From positions 1-64,000 of the forward strand of contig JASHNT010000131.1 in assembly GCA_030041495.1 (NCBI GenBank): a DNA stretch of 64,000 bases, in the 5' to 3' direction. The stretch comes from Bryobacteraceae bacterium (GTDB lineage: Bacteria; Acidobacteriota; Terriglobia; Bryobacterales; Bryobacteraceae). Both the position numbers and the translations under genes were made by a program. Of the stretch, positions 18,746 to 28,204 are shown in pieces (the stretch's first letter is position 1; each line of letters begins with the position of its first letter). Under the pieces are notes generated by a model. The model worked only from the letters and a program-made list of their open reading frames with translations. It made no database searches and was not told where the DNA came from.

Positions 18746-21700
18746 TCACATCCGGAAACGAATGGTTCCGCTAATCACGCGCATGCCGTTGACGGCCTGA
18801 ACCACGCCGTACGTATTCAATTCATTCACCGCGGTGCCGAAGCTCGTCGGAACCGGATGGTTGAGAATGTTGGTCGAATTGATCTGAATCTCCAGGTTCT
18901 TGCGTTCTTTGATCTGGAACACCCTCGACATATTCATATTGAAAGAGAAGATGTCCGGACCGGGGATGGTGTTCCGCCCCGCGTTGCCGAAGGTTCCCGG
19001 CGCCGGTGTGGTGAAAGCGCCGAGGTTGAAAAAGCCGGTGCCGTTGGTGATGGGCTCTCCCGTAGCTTGGGCGCGCTCGGTCGCTGTAGTTCCGATGCCG
19101 GCGACATCGCCAAATACGGTCGCCGTAAACGGCAGCCCGCTACCCCAGCTCACCGGAGTCTGGAAGGTCCAATCTTTGAGCGCCTTGGTCAGAAATCCGT
19201 GATTGGCCATGAATCCGCGCCGTTGATCGACGGGCGATTCCAGAATCATCGTGTAGCTGATCTGGTTGCGCCGCACCGTCGAGGTGTTCGCATACTCCGC
19301 TCGAATGTCGGCTGGATTCTGCGCCGTGGTGATGTCGTCGATCGATTTCGCAAGCTGGTATTGGAACTGGAACGACACGTTGTCGCGCATGCGGCGGATT
19401 ACGGAAACGCTCCCCGTGTTGCTGTACATATTTGCGCCGGGTTCGGTGTACGTCAGCAGGCCCGCGTAGGAAATCGGGATGCGGCTGGTATATGTCGACA
19501 CCGGTCCGGGTGTAGCCTGGTTGGGATCGAACGACAATCCCCAGTGGTGTCCTTCAACTCCAATGTAGTTGATTTGCAGCACCAGGTTACCCGGCATGTT
19601 GCGCTGGAGCTGGAAGTTCCAGGTCTCAGAATAGGGCAGCTTAGTGTTGGGAGCGTAGGCGTAAGTGTTGCTGATGACGGTGGTGGGAGCGATCTGGGTC
19701 AGGGCGTTGGCGAAGTTCAGCAGGTTGCTGCCGCTGGATTCCAACGTTCCGGAGGAGTAGACGAACTGCGGTTGCTCACCCAGCCGTTGGCTGATCTGGT
19801 TGTAAATGCCCTCGTTATAATACGTGCCGAATCCAGCGCGGATCAGCAGGTTACCGCGCCGCATTGCCTGCCACGCCAAACCGATGCGCGGCTCGATCGC
19901 GCCGTGCTGCGCATCCAGCAGCGGATCGGAAAGGCCGCTGGCTACGCACGGGATCCCGGCGCTCAACGCCGTGCACGTGGTGGCCGGCGCGGCGGTCAAA
20001 ACCGCCGGAATGCCGGAGAAGCCTTCCGCGAAGGCCAGGTTTGCCAGCCGCCCGTATTTTTCGTCGGTGGGCGAAGTGTATTCGTAACGGGCGCCCAAAC
20101 TTAAAGACAGATTGCTGCGAAGACGGTAGTCGTCGTTGACCCACGCGCTATAGCCGAGTTGGCGGTAGTAACGGGTGTCGCCCCAGGTCACTGAAGCCGT
20201 CTGCGGAAGGCCCAGCAGAAAATCGGCGAATCCATTGCCGGTCCCGTTCACGGCGAGACCGCTGGGCAGCATCTCCTGCGTCTCCGCACCGGTGAAGCTG
20301 AAGCTGCCGCGGCCGGAGGAATCGAACAGGTAATTCTGGTCGAGCCTGGTCAACAGGCCGCCGAATTGAAGATTGTGCTTACCCTTACGCCAGGACAAAG
20401 CGTTCTGCAGATTCATGGTTTGCACCACGCTGTGCGAGGGAGTGCCGTCACTCAGACCGGTGTAGCCGTTTCCGAGGCTGATTGAGGGTGGGCCGTAGTT
20501 AGTGGGATTGTCCCAGTAGCCCAGAATGCCCACATTCCCTTCGACGTTTTGACCCAGACTCTCGAAATAGGGAGTTCCCGTATTAGCGTTGCGGTTCAAC
20601 CCGACTTGAAACGTATTGAATACGCGCTGCGTGAAGTTGTGGGTCCACTGCACGCTTTGGTTTTGTCCGAATCCCGCGGTTTTGTCGATGAACGGCGCGA
20701 AGTTCTGGGGGCTCTGCTTGTGCGTGTCGTTGGTTTGGGATTGAATCGACAGCCGGTCCTTGGGATCGACGGTATATTGCAGGCGGACGCTGACCTGCTG
20801 CAAATTCGTGGGCGGCGCCGTGACGAATTGATAATTGTTGATGGTTCCCGCGACGTTCTGGTTGGGCAGCGGGATATATTGTTCCAGGCCGAGGGCGACC
20901 GCGTTCAGCCGCGTCGGCGGGATGATGTTATTCGGGAAAGGCTCCGTGCCGCCGGAGAGCGGATCGTAGATGACCGCGCCGGCGCCGGCGAAGTTGCCTT
21001 GCTGCTCGGCCTGCGTGGGCACGTTCGAAAAGTTGTTGTTCGCCGAGGTCTGGATGGTGCCTTGATAGTTGACCGTGAAGTTGAACTTCTGGCTGAGATC
21101 GAACAAGTGAGGAATCACGAGCGGGCCACCGATATTGATTCCGTAACGATTGGATTCGGTCTGCGGCTTGGCAGTCGAGATGCCGTTGATGGCGTAGTTG
21201 CGGGCATCAAACGCCGAATCGCTCACGTTGTCGAAGGCGTTAATGCGGATCTGGTTTGCACCCTGCCGGCTGCGGTTACCGATTAATCCGCGAGCCCGTC
21301 CGCGACCGCCGCGACCGCCGCGTCCGCCGCCGCCGAAGCCCCCGCCCCCAAAGCCACCGCCGCCGCGTCCGCCTCCGCCAAAACCGCCTCCTCCGCCGCC
21401 GCCGCGCCCACCTCCACCACCGCCCTGAAAATTCCCGCCGCCTCCGGGGCCACCTTGGCCGCCCGGACCGCCGGGACCATTGAAGTCGCCTCCCGGCCCG
21501 CCGGGACCGCCCGGTCCGAAGTCAAAGCCGCGATCCTGCCGGAAATCATTGCCGTTTGTTTCGAGGCCGTTGCTCACAGTGCCGGCGATATTGAAAGAGT
21601 CGTTGGCGGTGCTGCTATTCACCTGGGAAGGGATCTCAGAAGGCTCGGCGGGGATCTCGGCGAGCAAGTCCGGCTGAGGGGTTGCCGCTTGTTGTCCGCC

Positions 21701-22186
21701 TTGCCCGCCACCCGGGCCTTGCCCGCCACCCGGGCCTTGCCCGCCTCCTGGGCCGCCTCCTCCTGGACCTCCCCGGCTTCGTCCGAATTGTCCGCCCGGT
21801 CCGCCTTGCCCGCCGCCGGGTCCTCCCTGACCTCTTCCACCACGGCCGCCGGGACCGCCTTGTTGCTGCGTCAACTGCTGCCGGCCTTGGAGCGTCAGCC
21901 CGATGTCGATCTTGATGGGCGTCTCGGCGATGGTCACATCCTTCCGGTAATGCTCGAAGCCGAACAGATCCGCTTCGATCGTCCACATCCCCGGCATCAT
22001 CCCGGAAAACTGGAATGCGCCGTTATCGTCGCTAATCGTGGTCAAGGCTCTTTCGCCTTGCGTAGCCCGTACCACGACGCCGGGAATCGGCTGTCCGCCG
22101 GAAGTCACCGTCCCCGATTGTGCGCACGCAAACGGCAGGCACACACCCAACGCTGCCAGAACTCTCAGCATTTTGTATCCGATCAC
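18746..22186 (-). CDS. Oar-like TonB-dependent receptor with Gly-rich linkers
   Basis: 1146 residues; GTG 22186 follows GAGGG, and ATG 22171 is the alternative. After the signal peptide comes a carboxypeptidase-regulatory-like beta domain (residues 22-95: SGGQPIPGVVVRATQGE, ISDDNGAFQFSGM). Two glycine-rich blocks follow, about residues 108-168 (GGPGG, GPGGGQ units) and 222-302 (GGGG, RGG, FGGGG units). An outer-membrane barrel makes up the remainder, with aromatic strands such as FTVNYQGTIQT and ending in GTIRFRM. The protein matches the huge acidobacterial TonB-dependent receptor/Oar family, which probably binds large polymers or peptides. The VWA gene overlaps its stop. Confidence 0.85.
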   Translation of the reverse strand: MIGYKMLRVLAALGVCLPFACAQSGTVTSGGQPIPGVVVRATQGERALTTISDDNGAFQFSGMMPGMWTIEADLFGFEHYRKDVTIAETPIKIDIGLTLQGRQQLTQQQGGPGGRGGRGQGGPGGGQGGPGGQFGRSRGGPGGGGPGGGQGPGGGQGPGGGQGGQQAATPQPDLLAEIPAEPSEIPSQVNSSTANDSFNIAGTVSNGLETNGNDFRQDRGFDFGPGGPGGPGGDFNGPGGPGGQGGPGGGGNFQGGGGGGRGGGGGGGFGGGGRGGGGFGGGGFGGGGRGGRGGRGRARGLIGNRSRQGANQIRINAFDNVSDSAFDARNYAINGISTAKPQTESNRYGINIGGPLVIPHLFDLSQKFNFTVNYQGTIQTSANNNFSNVPTQAEQQGNFAGAGAVIYDPLSGGTEPFPNNIIPPTRLNAVALGLEQYIPLPNQNVAGTINNYQFVTAPPTNLQQVSVRLQYTVDPKDRLSIQSQTNDTHKQSPQNFAPFIDKTAGFGQNQSVQWTHNFTQRVFNTFQVGLNRNANTGTPYFESLGQNVEGNVGILGYWDNPTNYGPPSISLGNGYTGLSDGTPSHSVVQTMNLQNALSWRKGKHNLQFGGLLTRLDQNYLFDSSGRGSFSFTGAETQEMLPSGLAVNGTGNGFADFLLGLPQTASVTWGDTRYYRQLGYSAWVNDDYRLRSNLSLSLGARYEYTSPTDEKYGRLANLAFAEGFSGIPAVLTAAPATTCTALSAGIPCVASGLSDPLLDAQHGAIEPRIGLAWQAMRRGNLLIRAGFGTYYNEGIYNQISQRLGEQPQFVYSSGTLESSGSNLLNFANALTQIAPTTVISNTYAYAPNTKLPYSETWNFQLQRNMPGNLVLQINYIGVEGHHWGLSFDPNQATPGPVSTYTSRIPISYAGLLTYTEPGANMYSNTGSVSVIRRMRDNVSFQFQYQLAKSIDDITTAQNPADIRAEYANTSTVRRNQISYTMILESPVDQRRGFMANHGFLTKALKDWTFQTPVSWGSGLPFTATVFGDVAGIGTTATERAQATGEPITNGTGFFNLGAFTTPAPGTFGNAGRNTIPGPDIFSFNMNMSRVFQIKERKNLEIQINSTNILNHPVPTSFGTAVNELNTYGVVQAVNGMRVISGTIRFRM
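21701..21754. repeat. 18-bp tandem repeat inside receptor gene
   Basis: Three head-to-tail units of 18 bases (21701-21718, 21719-21736, 21737-21754). The first two are identical and the third has two substitutions. On the minus strand each unit encodes GPGGGQ (last unit GPGGGQ/GPGGG-like). The in-frame period suggests expansion by slippage within the Gly-rich linker. Confidence 0.85.
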
Positions 22187-26007: not shown

Positions 26008-27483
26008 ATGCGCTGGAGCCGCCTGTTCATTCCCACTTTGCGCGAGGCTCCGGGCGGAATCGCGACCATCGGCGGACGTTTGCTGACGCGCGCCGGTTAC
26101 ATTCGCGGCGCTACACATTTGCCGTTAGGCAAGCGGTCTCTTGACAGAATCGCAGGCGTGATTCGTGGGGAGCTCGACGGGCAGGAATTCTCTTCGGTAA
26201 GCACGCCGATAGCTTTGATTGCACGCGAGCTGCGCAGCTACAGGCAACTTCCGCAGATCTGGTATCAGTCACCATGGAGCGGACACGCCGCCGCTTCATA
26301 TCACTTGCGCAATGGCCTGGAGGCCTGGTCGTTCGGCTTGACGCCCGCGGACTTTCTGGAAAGGGCCCGATCCATTCTCCGGCGCTGCGGCATCGAGTGT
26401 CTGGAAGCGGAATGGATCGGCGGCAAGACATTCGTGGTTCCCTGCGCCACGGGCGAGGATGTTGTGGCTCACGCTGGATTTTATGCAGCCGAGCTTTCGA
26501 GCGCCGTGAGCACGCCGAAGCCCCCTGTGGTTCCCGACCCGGAAGGCGGTTTCGCTCCCGAGCTCCTGCACACGCCGAATTGCAAGACCATCGCCGAACT
26601 GGCCGTGTTCACCGGCCTTCCGGAGACCTCGCTGATTAAGAGCCTGGTCATGGCTCACGGGGAGACGCTTTTCCTGGCCCTGTTGCGCGGCGACCACCAG
26701 TTGAGCGAACTGAAGTTGGAGACCGCCCTTGGTATCTTCGGCCTGACACCCGCGAGTTCCGCGCAGATTTGCAATTATTTCGGAGCCAGTGCCGGATCGC
26801 TCGGTCCCGCCGGAGTCAAGGGTATCCGCATTCTCGCCGACGAGGCTCTGCGTGGGCGGCGCAACATGATCTCGGGAGCCAATCGCGACGACTACCATCT
26901 GCGGAATGTCACTCCCGGGAAAGACTTCTTGGCGGAATTTTTCGATTTGCGGCAGGCCGAAGAAGGTGACATTCACGACGGCCAGCCCTTGCGCGTCGAA
27001 AGAGCCGCCCGGATCGGGTCCGTTTCACGAGACGTGCCAGGCGGCGACCTTCATGTTACGGACGAGTTTGGCAAAGAGGTGGGCGTTCAAGTCAAGTGCT
27101 GCGCGATTTCCATCGAGGGAATGCTCTGGGCGGCGGCCGAGCAGCATCATGACGCGGACGGTCTGGTGTTGCCTCCCGCAATCGCGCCCTTCGACCTGAT
27201 TGTTACTCCTGTGGAGTACTCGAATCAAGCGCAGCAGCGCGCGGCCGGCGAGATCCTTGATACTGCCTCCGCAGCCGGCCTTGAAACGCTGCTGGACGAT
27301 CGCGAAGAGCGGCCGGGAGTCAAATTTAAAGACGCCGATTTGATCGGCGCGCCGTGGCGCGTGACCATCGGCAAAAAACTGGAGCAGGGAATCGTGGAAG
27401 TGGTCGAGCGGCGATCCAAACAGAGAGTTGACGTGCCGCTAAGCGAAGCAGTCGAGTTCATTCGTACTCGACTCCGATCATAA
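26008..27483 (+). CDS. ProRS-derived protein with degenerate synthetase core
   Basis: 491 residues; bacterial ProRS of the INS-containing type has about 570. The start (MRWSRLFIPTLREAPGG) and TRAGYIRGATHLPLG align with the ProRS N-terminus. However, about 65 residues holding motif 1 and the TxE loop are deleted between ELDGQE (60) and ALIARELRSYRQLPQIWYQ (69-87). Motif 2 (FRDE...) is absent, the EVGHIF..GTKYS strand is missing, and motif 3 has become AISIEGMLWA without its arginine. In contrast, the INS/YbaK editing domain (about 188-308) keeps lysine K211, the GSLGP loop (263-267) and H297 of GANRDDYH. The anticodon-binding domain (395-491) is intact (LLDDREERPGVKFKDADLIG). Proline activation should be impossible. 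Editing of mischarged tRNA-Pro in trans is my preferred inference. The long intact frame argues against a pseudogene. Confidence 0.8.
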   Translation: MRWSRLFIPTLREAPGGIATIGGRLLTRAGYIRGATHLPLGKRSLDRIAGVIRGELDGQEFSSVSTPIALIARELRSYRQLPQIWYQSPWSGHAAASYHLRNGLEAWSFGLTPADFLERARSILRRCGIECLEAEWIGGKTFVVPCATGEDVVAHAGFYAAELSSAVSTPKPPVVPDPEGGFAPELLHTPNCKTIAELAVFTGLPETSLIKSLVMAHGETLFLALLRGDHQLSELKLETALGIFGLTPASSAQICNYFGASAGSLGPAGVKGIRILADEALRGRRNMISGANRDDYHLRNVTPGKDFLAEFFDLRQAEEGDIHDGQPLRVERAARIGSVSRDVPGGDLHVTDEFGKEVGVQVKCCAISIEGMLWAAAEQHHDADGLVLPPAIAPFDLIVTPVEYSNQAQQRAAGEILDTASAAGLETLLDDREERPGVKFKDADLIGAPWRVTIGKKLEQGIVEVVERRSKQRVDVPLSEAVEFIRTRLRS

Positions 27484-28204
27484 AGAGGCCTCGCGCGGGG
27501 GCGGATGGTCCGGGCGGAATCCCGCAGCCCGGTTTCAAGCGAGCCTCCAGATCCGCTCGCGTGAAATTTCCTTTACCGGCCTCGAGCAGGACGCCCACGA
27601 TGTTGCGCACCATGTGCTTCAGGAAACCCGTGCCGCGGACGCGATAAATCAAGCGGTCCTGCTCGCGGGCGAGGCGCGAAGAAAAAATCGTCCGCACCTT
27701 CGATCGGCCCAGCTCATCGGTGTCATCGGAGGCCGCGAACGCGGAGAAATCGTGCTCACCCTCCGCCAGTGGCGCAAACTCGATCATTTTTTTCTCATCG
27801 AGCGGGTAGGGATGATGATAGACGTAAAGGCGCTCAAAGGGCGAGCAAAGCTCCGAACGGAGGATGCGATACTCGTAGGTTTTCGCGCGCGCCGCGAAGC
27901 GCGGATGGAAATCTGCAGCGGCTTCCTCCACGGCGAGCACGCGAATATCGCGCGGCAGAAGACGGTTCACGGCTTTGCGCAGATTTTCAACGGGGATCGG
28001 ATTCTCCAGGTCGAACGCCGCGACTTGCGCTAATCCGTGCACGCCAGCATCCGTCCGTCCGGAGCCTTCGACGTGCACCGTTGCTCCTTCAATCTGCGCG
28101 ATGACGGATTCAAGAGTTCCCTGGACGGTGGACAGCTCCGGTTGCACCTGCCAGCCGTGATAGTTGGTTCCGTCGTAGCTGAGCGTGATTTTGAATCGCC
28201 GCAT
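27458..28204 (-). CDS. truA: tRNA pseudouridine(38-40) synthase TruA
   Basis: 248 residues. It isomerises uridines 38-40 in the tRNA anticodon arm. Hallmarks are the start FKITLSYDGTNYHGWQVQP, the catalytic aspartate in GSGRTDAGVHGLAQ, FHPRFAARAKTYEYRI, and GTGFLKHMVRNIVG. The length is standard. It follows pyrE without any gap (stop at 28205, start at 28204) and its 3' end overlaps the ProRS-like gene on the other strand by 26 bases. The convergence with another tRNA-related gene may be coincidence. Confidence 0.95.
   Translation of the reverse strand: MRRFKITLSYDGTNYHGWQVQPELSTVQGTLESVIAQIEGATVHVEGSGRTDAGVHGLAQVAAFDLENPIPVENLRKAVNRLLPRDIRVLAVEEAAADFHPRFAARAKTYEYRILRSELCSPFERLYVYHHPYPLDEKKMIEFAPLAEGEHDFSAFAASDDTDELGRSKVRTIFSSRLAREQDRLIYRVRGTGFLKHMVRNIVGVLLEAGKGNFTRADLEARLKPGCGIPPGPSAPARGLFMIGVEYE

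Follow-up and report, generated by a model that had tools for sequence, protein, structure and literature searches.

The closest described counterpart of the protein analysed here is the archaeal (crenarchaeal) ThrRS-ed, which in the passages of PMC9976931, PMC11295145 and PMC7916415 devoted to it appears as a truncated synthetase without catalytic site that possesses editing and anticodon domains and that, in some archaea, sits beside a separate synthesis-only ThrRS-cat. For proline, ProXp-ala is depicted in the pertinent sections of PMC3973320 as a free-standing INS-fold enzyme that targets Ala-tRNA-Pro and occurs in many species with an INS-less prolyl-tRNA synthetase (ProRS). It is a single domain that reads acceptor stem positions 72/73 and has no anticodon-binding domain (ABD); YbaK and the other ProXp proteins are likewise single-domain deacylases of the INS superfamily. 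Members of this superfamily are in fact described as single-domain, save the INS of ProRS itself, in the relevant part of a 2024 review (PMC11295145). Furthermore, the INS of E. coli ProRS picks its tRNA via the ABD and G35/G36, with the acceptor stem being dispensable, as stated in the portion of Das et al. (PMC3973320) concerned with tRNA choice. In the open-licence literature searched, no paper came up that describes a ProRS lacking the synthetase core while retaining INS and ABD.

Within a window of 64,000 nucleotides from a Bryobacteraceae genome, an ORF at 26008–27483 (+) starts with ATG and runs through 491 codons without interruption, as the initial annotation had stated, and ORF, Pfam, NCBIfam and solved-structure comparisons identify its product (P0001, 491 aa) as a dead type II ProRS. 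Like ThrRS-ed, the window protein has lost the core, has kept editing and anticodon domains, and is accompanied by a synthesis-only partner enzyme. ThrRS-ed, however, concerns threonine, archaea and another editing domain, whereas the window protein concerns proline, bacteria and the INS fold, derives from ProRS, has a partner of a different ProRS type and had more than one origin. By analogy, it would work like ThrRS-ed without being a member of that group, as its ProRS counterpart. The “third design” proposed by the initial annotation beside ProXp-ala and YbaK can thus be upheld for proline but not in general, as ThrRS-ed follows the same idea for threonine. Unlike ProXp and YbaK, the window protein carries an ABD and an N-terminal ProRS segment.

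Pfam recovered only PF04073 (residues 189–303, 78 bits) and PF03129 (residues 398–487, 65.8 bits) in the window protein; class II core domains did not appear at E-values of 0.1 or less. The best NCBIfam models were those of type II ProRS, both remaining under their cut-offs (PRK09194, 287.2 versus 558 bits; TIGR00409, 192.1 versus 306.7 bits), and the top solved-structure match by sequence was 2j3l, the type II ProRS of E. faecalis (E 2e-63), a direct homologue in which INS and ABD are intact as well. The type II layout, with INS within the core and a C-terminal ABD, is also that of the window protein, although type II ProRS has ~570 residues instead of 491 and the window protein is devoid of TxE loop and motif 2, with motif 3 replaced. 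Judged by its sequence, the window gene is derived from a bacterial-type (type II) ProRS, and its close relatives, among the best 80 of 590, belong to Bryobacterales and other Acidobacteriota. A convergent ORF at 27458–28204 (−), which by eye we take to be truA, overlaps the 3′ end of the gene by 26 bases; farther upstream, a 1146-aa ORF at 18746–22186 (−) contains long glycine/proline-rich (GGPGGG) runs.

Loss of the synthetase core can be followed motif by motif. The N-terminal segment (residues 1–62; 26008–26193, +), aligned to the ProRS N-terminus, still contains the long helix of motif 1, which commonly serves dimerisation and is confidently predicted at residues 39–56, and by alignment also the motif 1 proline, which is kept in 12 of 23 aligned dead forms. 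The initial annotation had regarded everything from motif 1 through the TxE loop as missing or replaced; this holds for the loop, which is deleted, while motif 1 partly remains. The eroded first core part (residues 63–171; 26194–26520, +) exhibits deletions of the TxE loop and of motif 2 FRxE. The second core part (residues 311–366; 26938–27105, +) has ARIGSV where intact enzymes have EVGHIF, and the motif 3 remnant VKCCAISIEGML (27091–27126, +) has KCCAISIEG where they have GSYGIGVER, three glycines and the arginine being replaced. The annotated loss of the motif 2 arginine and glutamate, of EVGHIF and of the motif 3 arginine is therefore borne out, and since the key motifs are deleted in the alignments, they did not merely diverge. 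Overall, the window protein kept one of 13 catalytic landmarks and 10/10 INS/ABD landmarks. With landmarks picked after inspection of the alignment, the 23 aligned dead forms (three more, G106, G127 and G154, are known only in pieces) kept 0–6 of the 13, and intact rows 12–13, except those cut by contig ends (G153 and both pieces of G004); the INS/ABD score was 10/10 in each of the 23. Among these 23, the TxE threonine, the motif 2 glutamate, the K of MKD and the third motif 3 glycine are found in none, the TxE glutamate and the motif 2 arginine in one each, and the motif 3 arginine in 11; the tabulated core sites are present in 44–53 of the 53 intact rows. By these motifs, the synthetase function of the window protein is dead.

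The two other domains remained intact, as had been predicted for both. The INS or aminoacyl-tRNA editing domain (PF04073, residues 189–303; 26572–26916, +) retains lysine K211 (26638–26640, +), the glycine loop GSLGP (residues 263–267; 26794–26808, +) and histidine H297 within GANRDDYH (26896–26898, +), with K211, G263, G266, N292 and H297 invariant across the 45 rows of alignment A1; all ten INS landmarks are kept in 23/23 aligned dead forms. Thus, the window protein possesses the INS fold, conserved lysine and glycine loop typical of INS-superfamily trans-editing proteins. In the ABD (PF03129, residues 398–487; 27199–27468, +), which includes DDREERPGVKFKDADLIG, 13 of 15 landmarks occur in all 23 dead forms and the remaining two in 22. 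An AlphaFold2 model of the window protein is confident (pLDDT 87.2, pTM 0.80) apart from residues 66–75 and 77–103 (pLDDT <50), coinciding with the eroded core, and Foldseek ranked 2j3l first (E 2.6e-48, TM 0.77, rmsd 7.5 over 584 columns), a likeness to ProRS that is partly built in because the input alignment consisted mostly of intact synthetases.

A search of the source genome (6.1 Mb, 98% complete) for a second, complete proS revealed one type I ProRS of 480 aa with a full TIGR00408 match (506.8 bits, cut-off 437) and without INS, and no type II ProRS above its cut-off; the window gene is therefore not the only proS of this genome. Neither is it a duplicate of the working gene, as the initial annotation's term “paralogue” would imply, since it is type II whereas the working enzyme belongs to the type I family. 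This type I enzyme shares the ABD fold with the window protein, but it is a complete, INS-less synthetase and not its parent. Proline charging in the source cell is done by the type I ProRS. A tRNA pattern search of the genome gave four matches, three of them tRNA-Pro genes, and the two that were read (L358 1480–1570 and L360 1480–1570) have C1:G72, A73 and anticodons ending in GG. As these are bacterial C1:G72/A73 tRNAs with type I charging, this type I ProRS must accept a bacterial acceptor stem.

Dead forms of the gene are recurrent. Among 150 genomes of the order Bryobacterales, searched with the window protein and for type I ProRS, 129 contain a relative of the former and 51 a complete or almost complete match to the latter (in G086 without the first 78 residues, in G140 in two pieces), the long type I matches across the order being 69–81% identical to the type I ProRS of the source genome. 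Of these 51 genomes, 20 carry a dead and 12 an intact type II gene (two of the latter being split over contigs), one carries a fragment (G132) and 18 have none. Conversely, in the 99 genomes without type I, which include G109 and G134 with type I pieces of only 56–57 residues, the type II gene is intact in 95, dead in one and absent from three; dead and intact were sorted from alignments, and some intact calls concern contig-cut or frame-broken genes (G004, G118, G126, G139, G144). The sole dead form without type I, G127, is a split gene in a fragmented MAG of ~1360 contigs, and is close kin of G056, a genome with type I ProRS. In two genera, comprising 23 and 19 genomes, further searching brought up the dead forms G151, G152 and G161, the partial G154 and a short piece in G150. 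The 80 best of 590 confirmed relatives from a contig scan include at least three dead genes: L117 is new, and L124 and L159 were taken as G095 and G079, already counted. The association between type I and dead forms refers to the 150 genomes, with G151, G152, G154, G161 and the genome of L117 lying outside the type I search. One genome, G103, has two type II ProRS genes (L080, L081), one just 36% identical to the window protein, which may result from contamination or a second transfer.

Beyond the order, 194 of 396 Acidobacteriota genomes (≥80% complete) matched type I ProRS at E 1e-40, and 80 of these, all outside Bryobacterales, were searched with the window protein. Two of the 12 resulting matches are type II genes (G170, intact; G418, dead by substitution), and the other ten are short ABD hits, six of them within the listed type I gene. 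The gene of G418 (L227), from another acidobacterial family and accompanied by type I, is full-length and retains 10/10 INS/ABD landmarks, with the T of TxE, the R of motif 2, the K of MKD, the H of EIGHIF and one motif 3 glycine replaced. From its sequence, it possibly represents a separate conversion by substitution or an early stage of the same conversion; its contig could be foreign because the MAG (88% complete) has a contamination of 5. In a further acidobacterial MAG, a type II ProRS (L160 868–2552) carries a frame break (continued translation in the first frame meets 17 stops), which may be due to assembly error or decay.

The dead state arose more than once, a recurrent condition rather than a lone oddity, as trees including the window gene and its relatives reveal. 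A 76-row quick tree from INS and ABD columns, comprising all 23 dead and 53 intact rows, involves 8 changes between dead and intact, at least 4 of which are forced by well-supported branches. A careful 55-row tree involves 9 (8–9 over bootstraps), at least 5 of them forced, and shows a single origin in 0% of bootstrap trees, the bootstrap being not fully settled. For the latter tree and the AU test, the long-branch dead rows G148 and G095 were taken out, and the intact rows were 32 of the 53 plus G170, chosen by hand; to the tree, G418 was added as dead. All trees were built without the contig-split G106, G122, G127 and G129, the frame-broken G139 and G144, the fragmentary G132, and additional or short copies in G103 and G137. 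The AU test rejected 21 dead rows as one clade (p=0.0021), and thereby one ancestral event for all dead forms; within genus g9, a single clade for the seven dead rows gave p=0.449, and these may stem from one event. Most changes between dead and intact should be losses, because deleted motifs are unlikely to return, and gene transfer may account for part of the pattern. In four places, dead rows nest by intact rows of type I-bearing genomes (G072 with G028; G056 with G114/G133; g9 with G045/G053; G092/G121/L117 with G047/G086), suggesting an order of events in which type I was gained, both enzymes coexisted, and synthesis was then lost. This nesting is not uniform, as no type I match was obtained for the intact neighbours G111, G126, G118 and G024.

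How selection acts on the four parts of the gene was compared in greedy disjoint pairs with an INS dN of 0.01–0.35, nine dead and 51 intact; three of the nine dead pairs join different dead lineages and therefore include time before the loss. Median INS omega was 0.102 in dead and 0.105 in intact pairs, and the dN ratio of ABD to INS was 1.31 and 1.66, respectively; thus, the INS is under constraint equal to that of intact enzymes, and the ABD in like proportion. In the first core part, omega reached 0.316 in dead versus 0.088 in intact pairs, and its dN relative to INS was 2.3–5.0 (median 3.1) versus 0–2.1 (median 0.62), with no overlap (Mann-Whitney p ~1e-6). For the second core part, the corresponding ratios were 1.7–4.9 (median 2.9) and 0–3.4 (median 0.9), with overlapping ranges. 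Alignment is less sure in the eroded core and may inflate core dN, but the INS figures are independent of that. The catalytic remnant is relaxed, short of omega 1, and both domains that the initial annotation had named as retained are under purifying selection.

We consider it probable that this former type II ProRS, no longer charging, proofreads tRNA-Pro in trans. Charging of proline by the type I ProRS, which has no editing domain, would yield mischarged tRNA-Pro; the ABD of the relic would bind tRNA-Pro by reading G35/G36, and its INS would hydrolyse wrong amino acids, most likely alanine, off the tRNA-Pro coming from the type I enzyme. Alanine mischarging by the type I ProRS of these bacteria is here assumed by analogy, and we infer that the relic is hydrolytically active, which amino acid it prefers, and that INS and ABD cooperate in spite of the broken core. 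If tRNA choice by the INS goes via the ABD, as the part of PMC3973320 on E. coli ProRS has it, INS plus ABD without synthesis is what proofreading of tRNA-Pro in trans needs, and loss of the core would leave a complete, tRNA-Pro-specific proofreader. The suggestion of the initial annotation that a dead synthetase was reused as a tRNA-Pro deacylase or regulator thus gains support, with deacylase activity as the likelier half.

A purely regulatory role, in which the relic would bind tRNA-Pro as a regulator or chaperone of translation or gene expression and leave INS hydrolysis unused, is unlikely. Synthetase-like folds do act as regulators in HisZ and GCN2, the ABD is fully kept, and the ORFs around two other dead genes, compared by eye, showed no common operon partner; but every tabulated INS landmark persists in 23/23 dead forms, and in 9/9 dead pairs dN is lower in the INS than in any other of the four parts, which would be needless for a pure binder. 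Slightly less likely still is a slowly dying gene, that is, a displaced ProRS in decay whose editing and anticodon parts are by chance the last ones left. Complete loss of the type II gene from 18 of the 51 type I genomes and the lineage-dependent degree of erosion would fit such a decay. However, the frame is open in the window and in 23/23 aligned dead forms, by which a pseudogene or frameshift artefact is rejected and the frame disruptions that would have spoken against the initial annotation are lacking from these homologues; INS omega matches the low value of intact enzymes, in contrast to the relaxed first core part; and separate lineages, for which the AU test rejects a single clade, keep the same two domains. 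Moreover, neutral simulation, restricted to substitutions in stop-to-stop frames and run at divergences of our choice, produced on average 6.5–13 stops, and stop-free frames in just 1 of 2000 runs. Least likely is a subunit that would associate with the type I ProRS, or with a second copy of itself, as an editing-competent complex: YbaK is reported to work as part of a ternary complex that also comprises ProRS and tRNA (in a passage of PMC11295145) and the motif 1 helix is retained, but the most eroded lineages drop much of the remaining core, and the type I enzyme comes from another ProRS family.

In addition to the dead ProRS, many of the genomes encode YbaK or other ProXp proteins in separate genes. 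PF04073 was searched (E 0.001) in the 51 type I genomes and five others; 60 stretches with free-standing members were fetched, leaving out five further matches (in G045, G053, G092 and two in G104). Of the 60, 58 gave a protein, and these fell into clusters of 24, 24 and 9 plus one singleton. By solved-structure search, four proteins of the first cluster (G000, G032, G092, G120) are nearest 3op6, one of the second is nearest YbaK, whose cut-off it also passes, one of the third is nearest 2cx5 and 3op6 with a weaker match to 1vki, an uncharacterised protein and possible ProXp-ala relative, and the singleton is nearest YbaK. The source genome has one further PF04073 gene, nearest 3op6 and then 2cx5. 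ProXp-ala (5vxb) was absent from the matches of the seven free-standing INS relatives searched against solved structures; it may be found among the other free-standing members. Given a type I enzyme without INS and the absence of ProXp-ala from these matches, the dead ProRS is the best candidate for editing Ala-tRNA-Pro. The editing function is dispensable, as the type II gene is missing in either form from 18 of the 51 type I genomes, and eight of these 18 also show no PF04073 match (E 0.001). These eight MAGs, 83–99% complete (G003, G050, G058, G075, G099, G140 (genus g1), G090, G131), apparently have no INS-type tRNA-Pro proofreading.

If proofreading by the relic is true, it would constitute an INS-superfamily trans-editing family with its own anticodon-reading domain. 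How anticodon recognition reaches an editing site ~70 Å away is an open question according to the section of PMC3973320 that raises it; the dead forms offer natural, graded core deletions in which both domains are kept, which makes it possible to ask what share of the core is required. In annotation, genes of this kind fall below ProRS cut-offs and risk being misnamed as proline--tRNA ligase. In soil acidobacteria with a type I ProRS, several have kept the type II enzyme as a non-charging remnant with both domains under selection. On balance, we lean towards the view that the proline job was split in Acidobacteriota repeatedly and independently between a synthesis-only type I enzyme and an editing-only former type II enzyme. 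This would be a predictable and repeatable route, and a repeated, directional fate of the displaced synthetase, by which synthesis is lost and proofreading kept.
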